Positions 50,325 to 63,450 are shown, counted from the stretch's first letter. The stretch is DNA of 64,000 nucleotides from Bdellovibrio bacteriovorus (GCF_001592735.1 NZ_LUKE01000001.1:1997184-2061183), one strand, 5' to 3'. Numbers and translations: made by a program. Notes: a model not told the origin generated them from the sequence alone.

Positions 50325-50361
50325 TTGTCAGGTGTCGGGGGGGAGTTTTATACTTCTCCTT

Positions 50362-51294
50362 ATGGCTCAGAACGACGACACGAATGAACATTTAGAAAAA
50401 ACCAGTATTGTTGCCAGCGACACGTTCCGTGGTCGCTTAAAAGAGGCGGACGAAGTTCCGCCGGCCATCGTAGTTCTTATTGGACCTCCCGGCTACGTGG
50501 GAAAGCAGTATCTTATCACGGCCAATGACATTGTGATTGGTCGTTCCGTTGAAAGCCAAGTTTACATCGATGATAAAAGTTTAAGTCGTTCGCACGCTAA
50601 ATTCGCGGTGAATGGCGGTGATGTATCGGTGATCGATTTGGGTTCAACCAATAAAACAGTGGTGAACGGTCAAACCATTCCTCCGTTATCGTCATGTCTT
50701 TTGAAAAACAATGACCAGATTAAAACCGGCAATGTGATTTTTAAATTCCTTGAAAAAGGAAGTTTAGAATCCATGACCAATGCGGCGATGTACGAGCGTG
50801 CCCACAAAGACGCTTTAACTGGGGCGCACTCTAAAGGCGCGCTTTTAGAAAAAGGCCCGGAAGCGGTGAAGCGTTCGGAGCTTTTAAATGAGCCGTTGTC
50901 GCTAGTGACTTTTGATATCGACCATTTTAAAAAAATTAACGATACGTATGGCCACCCAGGTGGAGACTACATCCTGAAGGAGCTATGCCGTATCGTGATT
51001 ACTAAACTGATTCGTGCCAATGACTTCTTTGCCCGTTATGGCGGGGAAGAATTTGTTTTGCTTCTTTCCGGTTCTCCGCTAAAGACCGCCGGAGAAGTCG
51101 GCGAGCGTATTCGTCACACGATTGAATCCCATGACTTTCAATGGGAAGGTAAAAAAGTGCCCGTGACTATTTCCGTAGGTGTGGCAACGAAGCTTGCAGC
51201 AGAAACGGAATGGACTCAATTGTATGAGCGTGCGGATAAAGCCTTGTATCAATCAAAACAAGGTGGCCGTAACAAAGTCACGGTCGCGTCTTAG
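50362..51294 (+). CDS. dgcB: FHA-GGDEF diguanylate cyclase, DgcB-like
   Basis: 310 residues from the ATG at 50362. A 30-residue tail with Thr14 (HLEKTSIVASDTF) precedes an FHA domain (IVIGRSVESQVYI, SLSRSHAKF, DLGSTNKTVVNG). A GGDEF domain follows with FDIDHFKKINDTYGHPGGD and the active site ARYGGEEF. An RxxD inhibitory site (RAND) lies five residues before GGEEF, so product inhibition is expected. In Bdellovibrio bacteriovorus, DgcB is required for prey invasion, and its FHA domain is reported to bind its own phosphorylated N-terminal tail. Confidence 0.92.
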   Translation: MAQNDDTNEHLEKTSIVASDTFRGRLKEADEVPPAIVVLIGPPGYVGKQYLITANDIVIGRSVESQVYIDDKSLSRSHAKFAVNGGDVSVIDLGSTNKTVVNGQTIPPLSSCLLKNNDQIKTGNVIFKFLEKGSLESMTNAAMYERAHKDALTGAHSKGALLEKGPEAVKRSELLNEPLSLVTFDIDHFKKINDTYGHPGGDYILKELCRIVITKLIRANDFFARYGGEEFVLLLSGSPLKTAGEVGERIRHTIESHDFQWEGKKVPVTISVGVATKLAAETEWTQLYERADKALYQSKQGGRNKVTVAS

Positions 51295-53955: not shown

Positions 53956-55998
53956 TTATGGCAGATTAATTCGCATGACCCCATAATTGGCTGCAAGATA
54001 AAGCTTTCCGCCAGAGATGGTCATAGAAGTCACCATTCCTAACGTGGGCGTAGCTCCCGTTTGATTTTTTATGACGTTGCTCGTTCCTAGGACCGTGGTG
54101 ACAACGCCTGCAGGAGTGATTTTACGAAGCAATCCTGAACCGGAGTCAAAAACATAAAGATTGTTTGTTGCTGGATCTATAACCATAGCACCCGGTTCGG
54201 TAAAACGGGCGGAGGCGCCTGTCCCGTCATTGATTCCGGCTGCTCCTGAAGACCCAGCGAAAGTGGTGACCACTCCGCCAGGCAATGTCATCTTTTTGAT
54301 CGTGTGATCCCACGAATCAGAGATAAAAAGATTTCCGGATGAATCTATGGCAAGCCCTTTAGGATTTCCAAACTTAGCGGCAGTTCCAGTGCCATTTGTC
54401 GGAGAGCAATCCGAAGCCACCCCTGCGATGGTCGACACCACACCTGCGGAAGTGATTTTACGAACCACGCAATAATCCGTCATGGTCAGGTAAATATTTC
54501 CGGCGGAATCTGCGATCATGCTCCCCACAGAACCAAATTGTGCAGCGGCGCCCGTGCCATCGGCACTTCCTTCTGCGCCTCCCGCGATGGTAGATACTAC
54601 TGCGCTAGGGCTAATTTTTCGCATTCTGTAGCTAACGCTATCATATACGTACAAGTTTCCGCTGTTATCAAAAGTCATCGAATAAGGGCCATCAAAAGTG
54701 GCAGCAGAGCCCGTGCCGTTATCAGAGCCAGAGTCTCCCGATCCAGCAAATGTGGTAACAACCCCGCTGGAGTTGCTTCGTCTAATAAGATTATTCATTG
54801 TATCCGCTATATAGATATTACCGCCGATGGCCGCGATAGAGTTTATATCTAGAAACTTTGCGGCCGTGCCGTTGGCATTTAGCATACCTCGATTTGGTGG
54901 ATGACCAACAAATGTGGTTACCACTCCGGCAGAAGTTACTTTGCGAATGGCGCCAAAATCTGCCACGTAAATATCACCATTGGTATCAAAATCGAAATCT
55001 TGGATAAGTCCAAATTCTGCGGCAGTCCCGGTGCCATCTTTATATGCCAGGTTTGAGGTGGGTATTCTGCCGGCAACGGTGGTGACTACGGCACCTGGCG
55101 TGATTTTTCTTAAAACAGTATAGTTTGTTACAAAGAGGTTTCCAGAAGGATCTACTTTCATTTTCATCATTACCATAAATCGCGCGGCAGCGCCGGTGCC
55201 ATCGACGATGCTGAATCCTGGCGTCGTGGTGGGCCCCGCAAAATGCGAAACGGTGTTGCTTGAGGCCAAGTCGATACGTTTTATGTGGGTGTAGGCTTCG
55301 TCATACACGTAAAGATAGTTGGGGGCAGCAAAGGCGATAAATTTAGCTCCGGCAAAACGAGCAGCCGTTCCTACACCCACCGCATTGCCCGCCGTGGTTG
55401 AACCCGCGATGGTGGTGACGACTCCGGCGGGCGTGATTTTGCGGACTCTGGTGCCATTATCTGTGACATAAATATTATTTGCAGAATCAAAGGTCATTTC
55501 TGACAAGGACGTAAAACTTGCACTCGTGCCGGTTCCATCGGCCGTACCAGGAATTGATCCAACAAAGGGCATGAATGTAGACCCGTCATATTTTAAGATG
55601 GAGTATGAAGTTAATAAATATTTATTACCGGCGAAATCCTCTCCGGTCATCGTCACCTCAGGATTCGCACTTAAGCTCGACATTGCGATGTCAGAGTCTG
55701 CGGTAAAAGTTCCAGATAAAGTAGATACATTTCCTGCAGTATCCACCTTTCTTGAAAGGGCTAAATCTTGAAAGAATATCTCTCCGGAGTTCACTTTTAT
55801 TTTCATGGGAAAAAAAACACGGGCCGTTGTCCGATAACCATCCAGATACCCGATTCCATCTGGGTCCCCCACAAAAAATTCCAATGCACCTGCGACCACA
55901 GCCACTGCTTTTTTTCCCAAGCGCATGGCCGTCATCCCCATGAAGGACTGGGCGGGAGTGGTGATTAAAATAATCATAATAAAAATAAGATTACGCAT
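53956..55998 (-). CDS. Secreted NHL-repeat beta-propeller protein of fibre cassette 1
   Basis: 680 residues from the ATG at 55998, which overlaps the fibre stop codon (TAATG). A signal peptide (LIFIMIILITTPAQS) and about 70 non-repeat residues are followed by roughly 10-11 NHL repeats of 50-60 residues: GTGTAAxFG, then a strand, NLYVADxxxxxIRKITPAGVVTTIAG. NHL propellers usually bind protein or glycan partners. Its strict coupling to the fibre gene suggests that the products act together at the cell surface. Confidence 0.8.
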   Translation of the reverse strand: MRNLIFIMIILITTPAQSFMGMTAMRLGKKAVAVVAGALEFFVGDPDGIGYLDGYRTTARVFFPMKIKVNSGEIFFQDLALSRKVDTAGNVSTLSGTFTADSDIAMSSLSANPEVTMTGEDFAGNKYLLTSYSILKYDGSTFMPFVGSIPGTADGTGTSASFTSLSEMTFDSANNIYVTDNGTRVRKITPAGVVTTIAGSTTAGNAVGVGTAARFAGAKFIAFAAPNYLYVYDEAYTHIKRIDLASSNTVSHFAGPTTTPGFSIVDGTGAAARFMVMMKMKVDPSGNLFVTNYTVLRKITPGAVVTTVAGRIPTSNLAYKDGTGTAAEFGLIQDFDFDTNGDIYVADFGAIRKVTSAGVVTTFVGHPPNRGMLNANGTAAKFLDINSIAAIGGNIYIADTMNNLIRRSNSSGVVTTFAGSGDSGSDNGTGSAATFDGPYSMTFDNSGNLYVYDSVSYRMRKISPSAVVSTIAGGAEGSADGTGAAAQFGSVGSMIADSAGNIYLTMTDYCVVRKITSAGVVSTIAGVASDCSPTNGTGTAAKFGNPKGLAIDSSGNLFISDSWDHTIKKMTLPGGVVTTFAGSSGAAGINDGTGASARFTEPGAMVIDPATNNLYVFDSGSGLLRKITPAGVVTTVLGTSNVIKNQTGATPTLGMVTSMTISGGKLYLAANYGVMRINLP

Positions 55999-58277
55999 TA
56001 GTATTGAGCTGCCACTCCACAATAAACTTTCACGCCACTGCTATTCATGACTAGGCAGCTGATGATACTTGTGGTTCCAGAGTTGACCGCAAAGCCGCTG
56101 TAACTCGCGCCTCCTGACCCACCAGTTGAATTTTTATCCCAATAAACGCTGCTAGTAGCTCCGTTATAAGAAATGTTAAACACACTTGCTGTTTGGCCCG
56201 TAACAAAGAAAGTAACGTTCCAAGACATACTTCCTGCGGGCCATCCTGTGATGGTGGGAATATTTAATGTCGTTGTACCCGACGCGCAGGCAGTGACTGT
56301 ATAAATATTTGTGGCATAACCCGTGATATTGGTCGCACCACAAGACAAGGCCCCAAGATCACCCACTTTTTCAAAGTACGCTTTGCGCAATGTCATGGCT
56401 TGATCCACATCAAGACCTGTCTCCGGAGTGGCCGTTCCGATTCCCACGTTGCCCGCGCTGTAATGGATTCTTGAAGAGCCCCCATCCTGCCACATCGAAG
56501 CTCCCGCAGGAAGACGGGCAGAAGCAATTGTGCCTCCTGTAATTGCCGACGCATCTAACGATCCGATGTTTTGACATTCAAACATATCAGTCAACGATGA
56601 CCACTTTACAGTTTGATTAGCATCACAGGAATTCGTATTGAACGCGGACGCTCCCAAACTATTTTTAATGTCAGAAAATCGAATGTCTGCGCCCGCCCAA
56701 GAAGTGCCGTTCGATTTAAGATACTGTCCTGAGGCTCCGGAAGCGGAAGGAAGAGATGTCACGGAATTTGTCGAAATCGCGGTGACTCGGCCTTTATTAT
56801 CAACGGTGATACTTGGAATTAAAGTGGAAGAGCCATACACACCCGCTGTCAAACCACTCACAGTTTCTAATTTGGCTGCTGTCACGGCCCCATCATTTAT
56901 TTTTGCGGTTATGACAGAGTTCGCAGCAAGCTCTGTTGATGTCACTCCACCGGAAGAAATAGAAATTGTTCCTGATGTCGTGATGCTACCCCCGTTAAGC
57001 CCTGTTCCGGCAGTGATTGAAGTCACCGTTCCGCTTCCGCCTCCAGATGGCGCGGGGGAACAAGACCATCCATTTGACGTGGTCCAAATTAGCATTTCAT
57101 TGTCATTGCAGGATTTATTAAAGAACTGAGTGCCATTACGAACTATGAGGCCACTGTTTGACGTCATACTTCCGGCGAAATTAAGATCCGCGACACCGAC
57201 AGCGCCATCTAAGATTTTGGCACTGGTCACAGAATCCGCGGCGAGGGTTGGGGCGGCCCAAGAAACATTGGTTCCGTCCGATTGCAAATAAAGACCGTTG
57301 TTCCCAAATTGCGAAGGTAAAAGATTGTTGATGGCTGCACCCTGCGAAGTGGCGCCGGTCCCGCCTTTGGTGATCGGAACTGTTGCTAAGGTCAAAGAAT
57401 TAGATCCCGCGGACGACGTGACGTCCCCCGTGAATGCCGGGAGGGATGCTGTGGGTAAGCTTCCAGAACTTATGTGCGAGGCATTTAAGTTCGTCAGATT
57501 GGATCCGTCGACAGACGGAAGTTTATCTCCGACACCCACTTGCAAAATTTTTCCGGTCGTGGTTCCAACATCGACACTCAACGTTCCCGTGATCGAAATA
57601 GTTCCTCCCAGAAGTCCCGTTCCGGCCGCGACGCTGGTGACGGTCCCGGAACCACCACTTCCGGAAGCGGGAGTGACAGGGGTGAACTTCGTACCATCAA
57701 ATGCCAGAACTTTTCCTGATGAATTGCCGGTCAAATCCACGGGCACCCCTTTGATCTTATCCACCGAAACGGAAGATTGGGTGCCGCTGACGTCTCCTGC
57801 AAGCAGGCCTGTAAAGCCATTCGCAAAACCGGCATAGGGAACAGTGCGTATTTCGCTGTCTGGTGACAACATCTTCCATCCCGAGCCATCCCAAAAAGAC
57901 ACACGCAATAGACGCCCAGCATGTAAAGGGAGTGTGACGCTCGAACCGCCTTGGCAAGAAAGGGGAATGCCATTTTTTAATGAATCCAAAACCGAAAATA
58001 CACCCGAGGCGGGGAAAGACCGAGTGCCAGAACCAATGGCCGTGTCAAATAGACCTTTGGAGTGAGTCATGTCGTAGCCGCTGACTTGTTCCTGATAAAT
58101 TATACAAGATCCGCCTGGATCAGTGATCTGAAAAATAAAACTGACATTATGGTATTGAAGAGGCGTACCATCGCTTCGAAGAATACGGCCCTGGTAGGTC
58201 AGCAGTGCCGGCGTTGCTTGCACCTGTGAGCTTAAAAAGAATATAGATAGCAACAGAAACGTCCAAACTTGTTTCAT
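55998..58277 (-). CDS. MAT-like fibre protein 1 (phage-tail-fibre-like surface protein)
   Basis: 759 residues. Signal peptide (VWTFLLLSIFFLSSQVQA), then a globular N-terminal domain TPALLTYQGRILRSDGTPL to about residue 150. A long fibre shaft of tail-fibre repeats follows (GTVTSVAAGTGLLGG, VPITKGGTGATSQGAAINNL, SAKILDGAVGVADLNFAG). The collar SRIHYSAGNVGIGTATPETG at about 625 precedes a tip domain of about 130 residues with several cysteines (LSCGATNITGY, ISCLVMN, VYCGVAAQY). This matches the mosaic adhesive trimer type described in Bdellovibrio. About 60% identical by eye to fibre 2 up to the tip. Confidence 0.8.
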   Translation of the reverse strand: MKQVWTFLLLSIFFLSSQVQATPALLTYQGRILRSDGTPLQYHNVSFIFQITDPGGSCIIYQEQVSGYDMTHSKGLFDTAIGSGTRSFPASGVFSVLDSLKNGIPLSCQGGSSVTLPLHAGRLLRVSFWDGSGWKMLSPDSEIRTVPYAGFANGFTGLLAGDVSGTQSSVSVDKIKGVPVDLTGNSSGKVLAFDGTKFTPVTPASGSGGSGTVTSVAAGTGLLGGTISITGTLSVDVGTTTGKILQVGVGDKLPSVDGSNLTNLNASHISSGSLPTASLPAFTGDVTSSAGSNSLTLATVPITKGGTGATSQGAAINNLLPSQFGNNGLYLQSDGTNVSWAAPTLAADSVTSAKILDGAVGVADLNFAGSMTSNSGLIVRNGTQFFNKSCNDNEMLIWTTSNGWSCSPAPSGGGSGTVTSITAGTGLNGGSITTSGTISISSGGVTSTELAANSVITAKINDGAVTAAKLETVSGLTAGVYGSSTLIPSITVDNKGRVTAISTNSVTSLPSASGASGQYLKSNGTSWAGADIRFSDIKNSLGASAFNTNSCDANQTVKWSSLTDMFECQNIGSLDASAITGGTIASARLPAGASMWQDGGSSRIHYSAGNVGIGTATPETGLDVDQAMTLRKAYFEKVGDLGALSCGATNITGYATNIYTVTACASGTTTLNIPTITGWPAGSMSWNVTFFVTGQTASVFNISYNGATSSVYWDKNSTGGSGGASYSGFAVNSGTTSIISCLVMNSSGVKVYCGVAAQY

Positions 58278-58299
58278 GACCCCTCAAATTCTTTTGATC

Positions 58300-58326
58300 T
58301 TATCGGAATAAGCTATCAGGAGTTGA
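58300..58326 (-). promoter_or_regulatory. Sigma-28 (FliA)-like promoter of fibre gene 1
   Basis: Minus-strand TCAA (58323-58326), 15 bp, TCCGATAA (58300-58307), against FliA TAAA-N15-GCCGATAA. The start of transcription would lie about 17 nt before the ATG at 58277. An AATAATTTGAGT stretch just upstream is shared with fibre gene 2. Confidence 0.5.
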
Positions 58327-58438
58327 AGACTCAAATTATTCAGCGTTAGGATCACGAGGTTTATATTAGTTTAGAGGAAGATAAATTGAAAAACTGTTTA
58401 CAGGAAATTCTCTCGGTTAACGCTTCCTCACATGATAA

Positions 58439-61168
58439 TCACGGACGAGGGGTAAAAATGTACCTAGCTGAACTAGGTCCAGAGACCGAAGCCCAAGTTG
58501 CTCCGTCCGGGGAGCTATAAAGCTGATTTGTTTCCGTGGAGGCGTAAAAGCGGGCGCCATTCCAAACAATCGAAAGCCCGTCATACGAGGCGTTAGCAAT
58601 TTGGTAGCGGGTCCATGTCGAGCCATCAGTACTGATGTGACAATAAAATTTGCTAGAGCCCGCACTCAGAGCGCAAAAAAGAGAACCATTCCAAGAGATG
58701 GCCCGATAGTCATAGTTGGTTATGGAACTTGAAGACCAGTTCACTCCATCAGGGGATGTCATCTTGATAGTTCCCCCGCGGGCTAAAGCCAAAAATTGAG
58801 TTTGATTCCAGACTAAGCAGCTCCAGGAGGCATTGGGTAAGGTGACTTGAGTCCACGAAACTCCGTCTGAAGAAATGGCACCGACAGTTCCGGGAGCAAT
58901 GGCGCAAAAAATGCTGCCATTCCAAACTATGGAATTCCAGTCTGCCGAAGCTGGTAAAGTTTGTTGTGACCATGTAACACCATCAGCGGATGTGACGGCG
59001 ATGTTTCCGGCAGAGGCAATAGCGCAAAAAATGCTTCCATTCCATGCCATCGCAGACCATGAAGCCGCCACCGGCAAGGTGCTTGGGCTCCACGTGGATC
59101 CGTTGGTAGAGTTTGCAGCTGTGGATGAGTCGGCGGCGAGGGCTACGGCTAATGAAGAGCTTGAGGCCACTGCGGTCCATCGACCCGTGCCGGGGCTTTC
59201 GGGTAAAGAGCCTAAAGCGCTCCAAGAGGTGCCGTCGTTGGAAATTGCGGCGCGATTGGAAAGATTTCCCACAGCAAAAAACTGATTCGATCGAGATGAA
59301 ATCCCCACCCAGCTTTGCGAACTGGGCATGACTGTCGGGGTCCAAGATGCCCCGTCATCAGAATAAGCGGCGGACGTTCCACTTCCCACGGCGCCAAAAC
59401 GCGTTCCTTGGGCAGTTATGGACCAGTCAGAACTTGAAGGCATGGTGGATGTTTTCCAGGATCTTCCATCGGTAGAGGTCGCTAGCTTGTTGGTGCCACT
59501 CTCAACGGCGGCAAAAACGCTTCCGTTATGAGCCATGGAAGACCAGTTCGCTTTCTCAATACCCTCCACGAACCATGTCACACCGTCTGCGGAGGTCGCC
59601 ATCAAACTAGAATCACTGGTTTTCGCGACATAGAAGCTTCCCGTCCAAACCACCGACGTCCAAGTTGCCGAAAGTGGTAGGGTTGCCTGGGACCAAGAGG
59701 TGGCGTCCGTGGAAGTCAAAAATGTATTGTCGCCTAAAATGATAAAGAGGCTATTAGCATAAGTGACGCAGCTCCAGTTCGCGCTTGAAGGCAAGGTGAC
59801 CGTACTCCAGTTCGCACCATCATTTGTGGAATAAAGACATGTGCCGGAACCAGGGGTCACCGAAAGGTATCGACCCGAGCTTCCTAGAAGAAGGCTGACT
59901 GAACTCATGCCGCTGGGGATGGAAAGGGTGGTCCACGTAATCCCATCGACAGATTGATAAAAGATATCACCGCTCATCCAATAATTGCCTAATAAAAGAA
60001 AATTGGAGCCATTGGAAGTCAGTTGGTACCATTGACCGGTCGCTGGTAAATTGGATTGGGTCCAAGTTGTCAGGTCCGTGGAAGTGATGACCTTGTTATC
60101 GCCAAAAGGACTAAAAATACTGTTGCCAATAAGACAAGCAACACTTCCGTTCCAGGCCAGTCCGTTCCAAGTAAAAGTATTAGGAAGACTTCCGCTTGTC
60201 CAATTGATTCCGTCAGCGGATCGTATGAAGCGATTTCCTCCGGTTGTGCCAGAGTCTACCGCTATGTAATAGCCATTTATGAACTGAAAAAGCTTCCACG
60301 TACCCGAAGGAAGAGTGTTGTTGCGGGTCCACGTTGAAGCGTTCGTGGAAAAATAGGTATCGCCATTTAAGAAAGAGTTTGATGCGGGCAAAATGACGTT
60401 AGAGCCGGATATTAGAAAGGGTTGGTCCGATTGCACAGGCAAGGATGCTGTCGACGACCAATTTATTCCGTCGGGCGAGGTTATTACGATGTTGCTGTTC
60501 TTAGCCACGACGGAAAATAGGGATCCACTCCAGGAAATCGCAGACCAATTGGCCGTGCTCGAAAGAGTTCTCGCGGTCCAACTAACACCATCTGTCGAAG
60601 TCATGCCGCGGTTGGACCCTGTCGCAACCGCGCAAAAAACAGTGCCGTTCCACGAGAGGCATGCCCAGTTGGAAGCTGAAGGGAGAGTATTGGTTTGTGT
60701 CCACGTGATGCCATCATTCGAATGAGCGCCTCGGTTGGCAGCGCTCGCGATAGCAACAAATTTTGATCCATTTGTGGCTAACCCCGTCCATGTCTGTGAA
60801 GAAGGCAGAGTGCGCAATGTCCACGTCGTGCCATCCGTCGACGTGGCCACGTTATTTCCTGGAGAAAGCAGGACAACATAAGTTGAACCATTATAAGCGG
60901 TGAGCGCCCAAGAACCTTTTTGATTGTTCGCGGACGGCATTGTTCCATTAGTCCAAGTGGCTCCAGTGGCGGTTGTGGTGCTTCGACCGTTAGACCCGGA
61001 ATCCACCCCGATCATGCGAAGATAAGCGATGGCAAGGTTTTTGGATTTGCGCATGCGGGTTGCCACCCACGCCCAAGAATTTGAAGATGTGAGGGTCACT
61101 GCCGTTGACAAGAGTCCCACGGAAGTCAGGGCTTTGATGAATTCGCGGCGCTTTAGTTTTTGGTTCAT
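58439..61168 (-). CDS. Tat-exported 21-repeat beta-propeller protein of fibre cassette 2
   Basis: 909 residues from the ATG at 61168 (AAGGGGC upstream), 11 nt after fibre 2. The N-terminus LKRREFIKALTSVGLLSTAV is a twin-arginine signal. The mature protein is one repeat of about 42 residues, W-NGSxFxAIA...TSxDGVxWT-xTLP, found 21 times counting the DGxxWT motif. Twenty-one fits three seven-bladed propellers. Trp/Asn/Ser-rich surfaces suggest glycan or peptide binding, as in sialidase-like or BNR propellers. No catalytic site was recognised. Confidence 0.75.
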   Translation of the reverse strand: MNQKLKRREFIKALTSVGLLSTAVTLTSSNSWAWVATRMRKSKNLAIAYLRMIGVDSGSNGRSTTTATGATWTNGTMPSANNQKGSWALTAYNGSTYVVLLSPGNNVATSTDGTTWTLRTLPSSQTWTGLATNGSKFVAIASAANRGAHSNDGITWTQTNTLPSASNWACLSWNGTVFCAVATGSNRGMTSTDGVSWTARTLSSTANWSAISWSGSLFSVVAKNSNIVITSPDGINWSSTASLPVQSDQPFLISGSNVILPASNSFLNGDTYFSTNASTWTRNNTLPSGTWKLFQFINGYYIAVDSGTTGGNRFIRSADGINWTSGSLPNTFTWNGLAWNGSVACLIGNSIFSPFGDNKVITSTDLTTWTQSNLPATGQWYQLTSNGSNFLLLGNYWMSGDIFYQSVDGITWTTLSIPSGMSSVSLLLGSSGRYLSVTPGSGTCLYSTNDGANWSTVTLPSSANWSCVTYANSLFIILGDNTFLTSTDATSWSQATLPLSATWTSVVWTGSFYVAKTSDSSLMATSADGVTWFVEGIEKANWSSMAHNGSVFAAVESGTNKLATSTDGRSWKTSTMPSSSDWSITAQGTRFGAVGSGTSAAYSDDGASWTPTVMPSSQSWVGISSRSNQFFAVGNLSNRAAISNDGTSWSALGSLPESPGTGRWTAVASSSSLAVALAADSSTAANSTNGSTWSPSTLPVAASWSAMAWNGSIFCAIASAGNIAVTSADGVTWSQQTLPASADWNSIVWNGSIFCAIAPGTVGAISSDGVSWTQVTLPNASWSCLVWNQTQFLALARGGTIKMTSPDGVNWSSSSITNYDYRAISWNGSLFCALSAGSSKFYCHISTDGSTWTRYQIANASYDGLSIVWNGARFYASTETNQLYSSPDGATWASVSGPSSARYIFTPRP

Positions 61169-61179
61169 GCTAAAGCCCC

Positions 61180-63450
61180 TTAGTTTTCTTTCCACACCAT
61201 CGAACCGTACCACACAGTCTCATCAGCGGCCTTGATGAATTGCAATATGGTGATGGAGCCTGAGGCCGTCGCGATTGTCGGCGCCACGTTGGAATCCCAT
61301 TTCACGGAGTCTCCAGATGCGGTGAGAATAGAAAGTGCTCGATTTCCGGTTCCATCTTGTTTAACAAAAAGAGTGAGGCTGTACATCTTTCCCGGAGGTG
61401 ACGTCATCGCCGGCAGGCGAATAGCGGAGGTCGCGGAACTTAACGTCAATCGACGAATATTAACAGACGTGTCAGGGATGGTGTAGCTTGCGCCGGTATT
61501 GGTGTAGGCACTGACGCCTTCAAAACTAGAATTGACTGCGGCCGCCCCATTTACGTCTAAGGGTGTCGAGGCGGTGGAGGTTCCGATCCCCACATTTCCT
61601 GCACTGTAATAAATGCGTGAAGAACCACCGTCTTGCCACAAGGTCGCACTTGCGGGAAGTCGGCCCGCGGCGATGGTTCCAGTGGTGATAGCCGCGGCAT
61701 CTAAAGAAGCAATATTTTGGCATTCAAACATATCAGTCAACGCGGACCATTTGACGGTTTGGTTTGCGTTACAAACCCCAATATTAAATGCCGAAGCGCC
61801 CATGCTATTTTTTATGTCGCTAAAACGCACGTCCGCTCCACTCCAGTTTGTTCCGTCGGATTTTAAAAATTTTCCAGAGCTTGTCGAGGCCGTGGGAAGA
61901 GTGTTGATCGATTGAGTCGAAATTGACGTCACGCGACCTTTCGTATCCACAGTGATGTTGGGAACTGCCGAAGCAGAGCCATAGGTTCCGGCGGTGAGTC
62001 CGCCCACGGTCTCAAGCTTAGCTCCGGTGACAGCACCATTTGCAATTTCCGTCGTATTTACACCCCCGGCCGCAATCGAAATCGTTCCCGAGGTGGTGAT
62101 GGATCCTCCATCCAATCCGGTTCCGGCCGTCACGGATGTCACGGTTCCGCTCCCCCCAGCCGACGGAAGAGCACTGCAAGACCAACCGTTAGAGGTGTTC
62201 CACACCAAAATTTCATTATTGCTGCATGTCTTATTGAAAAACTGTGTTCCGTTACGGACGACCACACCGGAATTTGCCGTCATCGTACTGGCAAAATTGA
62301 GATCAACGACCCCAATGGTTCCATCTAATATTTTGGCGCTGTTCACGGCGTCTGTCGCAATGGTGGCGGTGGAGGCCCCCGGCCCTGAAGCAGTTACATC
62401 TCCCGTTAAGGAAGCAATACCTGTATTCGGGGTGGCTACCCACGACGCGTCGGTTCCATTGGTTTGCAAAAAGAGACCGGAATTACCTGTTTGATCAGGT
62501 AAAAGATTGTTAAGAGCATTTGCTCTTGAAGTGGCGCCGGTTCCGCCTTTAGAAATGGGAACTGTGGAAAGTGTTAAGATAGATGAGCCCGCAGAAGAGG
62601 TAACATCGCCGGAAAATGCGGGCAGAGATGAGCTTGGCAAAGATCCCGTGGTGAGATGACTGGCATCAAGATTGGTCAGATTAGAACCATCGATAATTGG
62701 AAGCTTATTACCTGTCGCTACTTGAAGAATTTTTCCGGTCGTGGTCCCGACATCGACACTCAAGGTGCCTGAAGTGGTGATGGTACCACCCACCAGTCCT
62801 GTGCCTCCGGTCACGCTTGTTACGGTCCCCGTGGTTCCTGTTGCGAGAGTTGCAGGAACGAATTTCGAACCGTCGAACGAAAGAACTTTTCCAACCGAAT
62901 TGCCCGTTAAATCTACGGGTACGCCTTTGATTTTGTCGACGGAGGTCAAAGTTTGCGGCCCACTCACGTCACCTGATAACAAACCGGTAAAGCCCGTCGA
63001 GAATCCTGCGTAAGGAACTGTGCGGATTTCGGAGTCAGGAGAGATTAACCTCCATCCCCGCCCATCCCAGAAAGAAACTCTTAAAAGTCTTCCGGCGTGT
63101 AAAGGCAACGTGACAGTGGATCCACCTTGGCAGGAAAGGCTCACGCCATTACGTAAGGAATCTAAAACCGTGAATACCCCCGTAGCGGGAAAAGAACGAC
63201 TTCCAGATCCAATCGCGGTATCAAAAATACCCTTAGAGTGAGTCATGTCATAGCCGTCAACCTGTTCTTGGTACACCACGCATGCGCCGCTGGGATCAGT
63301 GATTTGAAAAATAAAACTCACACTGGGATATTCAAGGGGGCTTCCGTCACTTTTGATGATACGCCCTTGATAAGTAAGCAAGGCTGGCGTCGCGTATGCA
63401 GAGAAACTTAAAAGTAATGCACCTAAAACAAACGTCCCAAATTTGTCCAT
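61180..63450 (-). CDS. MAT-like fibre protein 2
   Basis: 756 residues from the ATG at 63450 (GAGGG upstream). Layout is as in fibre 1: signal peptide, TPALLTYQGRIIKSDGSPL domain, tail-fibre repeats (VPISKGGTGATSRANALNNL, SAKILDGTIGVVDLNFAS), collar SRIYYSAGNVGIGTSTASTP. It then has a different tip of about 120 residues (SFEGVSAYTNTGASYTIPDT to WYGSMVWKEN), without the cysteines of fibre 1. An inserted segment around residue 360 (GIASLTGDVTASGPGAST) is absent from fibre 1. Confidence 0.8.
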   Translation of the reverse strand: MDKFGTFVLGALLLSFSAYATPALLTYQGRIIKSDGSPLEYPSVSFIFQITDPSGACVVYQEQVDGYDMTHSKGIFDTAIGSGSRSFPATGVFTVLDSLRNGVSLSCQGGSTVTLPLHAGRLLRVSFWDGRGWRLISPDSEIRTVPYAGFSTGFTGLLSGDVSGPQTLTSVDKIKGVPVDLTGNSVGKVLSFDGSKFVPATLATGTTGTVTSVTGGTGLVGGTITTSGTLSVDVGTTTGKILQVATGNKLPIIDGSNLTNLDASHLTTGSLPSSSLPAFSGDVTSSAGSSILTLSTVPISKGGTGATSRANALNNLLPDQTGNSGLFLQTNGTDASWVATPNTGIASLTGDVTASGPGASTATIATDAVNSAKILDGTIGVVDLNFASTMTANSGVVVRNGTQFFNKTCSNNEILVWNTSNGWSCSALPSAGGSGTVTSVTAGTGLDGGSITTSGTISIAAGGVNTTEIANGAVTGAKLETVGGLTAGTYGSASAVPNITVDTKGRVTSISTQSINTLPTASTSSGKFLKSDGTNWSGADVRFSDIKNSMGASAFNIGVCNANQTVKWSALTDMFECQNIASLDAAAITTGTIAAGRLPASATLWQDGGSSRIYYSAGNVGIGTSTASTPLDVNGAAAVNSSFEGVSAYTNTGASYTIPDTSVNIRRLTLSSATSAIRLPAMTSPPGKMYSLTLFVKQDGTGNRALSILTASGDSVKWDSNVAPTIATASGSITILQFIKAADETVWYGSMVWKEN

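Follow-up and report, generated by a model that had tools for sequence, protein, structure and literature searches.

The window analysed here is a stretch of 64,000 nucleotides of the Bdellovibrio bacteriovorus genome, and four open reading frames follow one another on its minus strand (where all features listed for the four genes lie) in the order fibre 1, partner 1, fibre 2 and partner 2. All four are present as ORFs, and an ORF check placed the coordinates of the original prediction correctly to within a start codon. Fibre 1 (61180..63450, 756 aa) ends in a TAA stop codon followed, after 11 nt, by the ATG of partner 1 (GGGGCTTTAGC; 58439..61168, 909 aa); after a further 161 nt comes fibre 2 (55998..58277, 759 aa), the end of which shares the sequence TAATG with the start of partner 2 (53956..55998, 680 aa). 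The tight coupling that had been claimed for both pairs is borne out, as is the placement of each MAT-like fibre gene directly 5' of a large propeller gene, on the evidence of the ORFs, Pfam and AlphaFold2 (AF2). Elsewhere in the window (50332-51294) lies a protein with FHA-like and GGDEF regions, recognised by inspection, an arrangement like that of the Bdellovibrio protein DgcB, which is linked to predation.

Both fibres belong to the mosaic adhesive trimer (MAT) family, with scores of 179.5 bits (fibre 1) and 179.0 bits (fibre 2) against the NCBIfam model NF053851, Bdello_MAT_N (cut-off 60), and the match, which spans residues 12-152/153, corresponds to the beta-rich MAT domain of ~130 aa that comes immediately behind the signal peptide. 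Other MAT fibres of B. bacteriovorus are trimeric and surface displayed (Caulton et al., 2024, PMC10769870), and the window fibres share with them the N-terminal MAT domain and the general plan of a common head and variable C-terminal tips. The two fibres are 78% identical over the first ~200 aa and remain alike up to about alignment column 650, after which the tips diverge. Both are of the NS74 type: the S74 motif (SDxxxK-type) was looked for in both and not found, and the tips are of two other kinds, type A in fibre 1 (61183..61527, ending in ETVWYGSMVWKEN) and type B in fibre 2 (56001..56375, ending in VKVYCGVAAQY). A phage origin of the fibres was considered and rejected, almost no phage match being found.

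Several features of MAT genes in related genomes are recorded here in their own right. Small lipoproteins (83-116 aa) adjoin several of these genes (loci L110, L305, L316, L318, L320 and L321, in genomes G004 and G035), mostly upstream and often overlapping, and most of them have a CS[ML]EA[SN]-like lipobox region; they are candidates for a surface anchor of the MAT head. Two MAT genes of G007 (L220 and L222) are apparently split by frameshifts into a head and a remainder, which makes them either pseudogenes or phase-variable genes.

The two partners are both secreted beta-propeller proteins of different repeat families, in agreement with the claim that their repeats are not homologous. Partner 1 matches PF19755 (DUF6242) with 64.7 bits (Pfam cut-off 29) and contains 21 SxDGxxW-type (WT/Asp-box) repeats ~40 aa apart, a count that includes a degenerate first repeat; the 21 repeats would make three sets of seven. 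A segment of seven repeats is modelled by AF2 as a propeller (pLDDT 84, pTM 0.84), and the PDB matches of this model found by Foldseek are beta-propellers such as Ycf48. By inspection, partner 1 begins with a twin-arginine-like signal (KRREFIK); PF10518 has no match in this protein but matches the partner in another locus (L344). The body resembles Asp-box/DUF6242 propellers and phage proteins with similar repeats, although most of the phage contigs inspected have these repeats within large proteins and not in a coupled secreted partner. Partner 2 matches PF01436 (NHL) with 65.4 bits (cut-off 20) and TEN_NHL with 80.5 (cut-off 27), and its AF2 model (pLDDT 78, pTM 0.80), in which residues 1-34 are not ordered, is likewise identified as an NHL beta-propeller by Foldseek. 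The nearest solved structures by sequence are teneurin-like proteins; the NHL/teneurin-type propellers compared outside Bdellovibrionota, in contrast, have neither an upstream fibre gene nor an N-terminal tail comparable to the one described below.

The pairing of fibre and propeller is not a general property of MAT fibres. The next-gene tabulation shows that most MAT genes lack a propeller neighbour, and the notion that all of them have one is rejected: among the 24 MAT genes of the window genome, the only two with an adjoining propeller among those read are the pair in the window, and in the HD100-like genome G004, where the 21 MAT matches agree with the published count for B. bacteriovorus HD100 (PMC10769870), a propeller adjoins one of the 20 genes with a readable neighbour (an NHL protein behind a MAT of 1959 aa). 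The simple cassette rule of the original prediction therefore fails. The pairs themselves nevertheless recur in other genomes: an NHL partner directly follows a MAT fibre in G004, G007, G009, G022 and G119, and a WT partner follows a fibre in G054 and, frameshifted, in G117. In a control set of NHL propellers with a close upstream gene on the same strand (79 named loci), only the one from Bdellovibrionaceae follows a fibre. The recurrence supports the idea of a two-part surface device, but the partner need not be a propeller and is predicted by the tip domain of the fibre. The expectation that no propeller dedicated to MAT fibres had been described holds, in that the text of the MAT paper (PMC10769870) discusses neither propellers nor operons nor neighbouring genes, and a search covering few subscription papers found no literature that names MAT and propeller together.

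The presence of a partner appears to track the C-terminal tip of the fibre, as suggested by comparison of the encoded sequences. Clustering of fibre C-terminal ends revealed, besides types A and B, a third partner-associated type, C, a small tip with the C-terminal sequence (V/C)Y(V/I)(S/T)WxxGF (in short, VYVSWxxGF). A coupled secreted neighbour is almost invariably found with type C tips but is lacking for S74, coiled-coil and most other tips. The type C profile has matches in 60 of the 141 genomes of the order; the context could be read for 71 distinct tips, of which 57 are followed by a coupled ORF and 14 are not, and a signal peptide is found in 36-47 of the 57 coupled ORFs, depending on the rule applied. 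Within the MAT-head set, a coupled secreted next gene accompanies 11 of 14 docking tips, compared with 7/49 S74 tips and 6/31 other tips, some of the calls in the latter two groups being false and the tip types having been partly defined after inspection of the data. Type A tips with 48-60% identity occur in G117, G119, G054, G072 and G037, where partners with the same tail follow; in these five genomes and in G073, all type A relatives have a secreted partner as the next gene, and in G014 the tip is present with no partner behind it. Type B rests on two pairs, the one in the window and one in G024, where a tip 76% identical to that of fibre 2 precedes a Kelch propeller with a similar tail. 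A homology of the window tips to type C tips was considered and dropped, the profile comparison not being significant.

Some arrangements lie outside this scheme. Three S74-tipped MATs (L195, L188 and L041) are closely followed by, respectively, an LVIVD propeller (1372 aa), a fibrinogen-C-like protein and an LCCL protein, and a MAT fibre of G035 (L322) contains the type C tip twice, once internally and once at the C-terminus. In G073, the chain continues past the tip into an in-frame Gly-rich domain, behind which the partner gene lies. Tip and Gly-rich or lectin-like domain are joined within one ORF in G073 and G038; these chains look like fibres with a fused head, and they speak for the docking reading proposed below.

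The partners could be independent secreted adhesins, merely co-expressed with the fibres and working beside them with no contact, given that tight translational coupling alone would serve co-expression and that the partners have stand-alone relatives. We regard this as unlikely; it leaves unexplained both why partners follow certain tips and why, as described next, the start of the partner follows the tip.

The bodies of the partners are diverse. Propellers are the commonest kind among the partners scanned (NHL, Asp-box, DUF5122, RCC1, Kelch, SBBP and lactonase-like), yet the rule is wider, non-propeller bodies including LamG, TSP1, DUF285, Gly-rich, FGE-sulfatase-like and DUF1554 domains. The ~14 residues that come directly behind the signal peptide, here called the tail, match the type of the tip and not the body, with the motifs AWxGxRxRKxK for type A, FxGx6GK for type B and mostly GFWK-like sequences for type C. 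The tail of partner 1, AWVATRMRKSK (aa 33-43; 61040..61072), is of a kind common to type A partners with unrelated bodies, the others being AWIGFRARRP, AWTSRSQRQAK, AWVGTRIRKSK, AFTGQRMRQAK, AWTGTRMRKAI and AWQSARRSQGR. That of partner 2, SFMGMTAMRLGKK (aa 18-30; 55909..55947), matches AFNGRSMSVIGKR of the G024 partner as FxGx6GK[KR], although one body is NHL and the other an unrelated Kelch. Type C tails are mostly aromatic (for example, GAFWQKK, VGFWQ, IGFWKS, SFFKRR and GLWRKR); many lack the strict motif F[WF][KRQN] within 18 aa of the cleavage site, and three have a different start (such as DVSWTGVTQSPGDYTS), but the motif is found in 17 of 47 type C partners against 6 of 232 other secreted proteins (Fisher p 2e-10, an optimistic value for related genomes). 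WT, NHL, DUF285, Kelch and Gly-rich bodies each occur with two tip types, and the tail changes with the tip. With the numbers to be read as guides, because the tail boundaries were set by eye and partly after inspection of the data and because relatedness of the genomes makes the p-values optimistic, the mean local tail score is 18.7 for pairs with the same tip and different bodies, 13.5 for the same body and different tips and 12.8 for pairs that share neither (with a permutation p of 0.0002 for the tip and of 0.23 for the body), and for 22 of 24 tails (11 expected) the nearest one on another body goes with the same tip.

Such covariation might be the result of hitch-hiking, if recombination of the bodies leaves the 5' part of the partner gene linked to the tip, with tip and tail separated by no more than about 100-200 nt. 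The same-tip effect ratio is 1.53 for tails, but 0.94 for signal peptides and 0.95 for the next 40 aa, i.e., no effect, and the signal peptides even switch between Sec and Tat. Simple linkage is unlikely because both the segment between tip and tail and the 40 residues beyond the tail show no influence of the tip, and we give hitch-hiking hardly any credence.

The tail could also act in sorting, by addressing the partner to a machine for outer-membrane export or surface retention that recognises the tip as well; such a role would fit the position of the tail directly behind both Sec and Tat signals. In G035 (L166-L179), the pattern PF[GAST]FWK has 17 matches against none in the reversed control, and most of the proteins read are secreted ones (RCC1, Kelch, LamG and Gly-rich) that carry the motif immediately behind the signal peptide and do not adjoin fibres. 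As a universal surface-sorting motif, PFxFWK was discarded, being strongly enriched only in G035 and absent from the window genome, where a search for the FWxK pattern at the DNA level gave no signal over control; the more general sorting reading was kept as a rival. A common signal should not vary with the tip of the neighbouring fibre, whereas the A, B and C tails differ, and docking on shared type C tips is conceivable for the stand-alone tail proteins too, so that sorting appears a decidedly unlikely explanation.

We hypothesize instead, on the strength of the sequence comparisons, that the partner tail plugs into the tip, which acts as a docking socket, such that the partner is shown as a head at the end of the fibre for prey recognition, and consider this reading probable. 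Each cassette would then encode a two-part surface adhesin in which the MAT protein is the fibre, with its N-terminal MAT domain at the predator surface and its C-terminal tip (type A or type B in the window) acting as the socket. The downstream gene would supply a secreted head (a triple WT/Asp-box propeller for fibre 1, an NHL propeller for fibre 2), and the first 10-14 residues of the head after signal cleavage would serve as a flexible plug, fitting the tip of the fibre encoded in the same cassette, presumably with one head per fibre. The head would be displayed at the fibre end, outside the cell, and bind prey there; tip and plug would be kept as a matched pair, and heads swapped freely. 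The roles originally proposed, with the fibre recognising prey and the propeller helping, may thus be reversed, in that the fibre would hold the partner, and the partner, as the head, would do the recognising, while the notion of a two-part device stands. The difference from the published MAT fibres is that the adhesin there is the tip itself (PMC10769870), whereas here the tip appears to hold a separate protein.

Two precedents make the plug-and-socket arrangement plausible. In T2-type phages (S16, PP01), the N-terminus of the tip adhesin gp38 seats on the trimer of the long tail fibre protein gp37 and must match it (PMC12892980), and in the crystal of the Bd2133 tip trimer an N-terminal peptide is bound 1:1 per trimer (PMC10769870). 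The latter is an analogy only, because the likeness of type C tips to Bd2133 lies mainly in the stem, and homology of the two tips was rejected for the same reason. The likeness to gp37/gp38 extends to an adhesin gene directly downstream of a trimeric fibre gene, to the covariation of tail and tip and to the Gly-rich heads of some relatives. On the other hand, the plug here has ~14 residues compared with a region of ~110 residues there, the heads are of many unrelated folds, and the carrier is a cell and not a virion; phage tblastn and Pfam searches gave no match for kinship of head or tip with gp37/gp38. The gene order gp37-gp38 is shared with phage T4 too, where gp38 acts as a chaperone and is let go once assembly is complete (PMC12892980), and the partners might by analogy be folding or assembly helpers of the fibre tip. 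That they are secreted, reach up to 1400 aa, comprise many unrelated adhesive folds and differ on closely related tips makes such a function very improbable.

More broadly, there is about an even chance that Bdellovibrionota possess a modular system of adhesin display, in which a few socket tips on trimeric MAT fibres and a short N-terminal plug code would serve an open-ended range of unrelated heads (NHL, Asp-box, Kelch, RCC1, DUF5122, LamG, TSP1, DUF285 and Gly-rich), and in which stand-alone plug-bearing proteins may dock on shared fibres, resulting in combinatorial prey recognition. MAT fibres are the main candidate for the means by which predatory bacteria recognise very different prey. 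If some of these fibres hold exchangeable heads, single-fibre deletions and tip structures give only half of the picture, and the heads would be the proteins to test for prey specificity. A fibre-propeller pair is present in the HD100-like genome, so that the hypothesis lends itself to a direct test in the model strain. Protein display in general would gain a tool as well, namely a short peptide plug by which any folded domain can be mounted on a trimeric fibre. For the predators themselves, docking of this kind would mean that they could swap prey-gripping heads on a common fibre.
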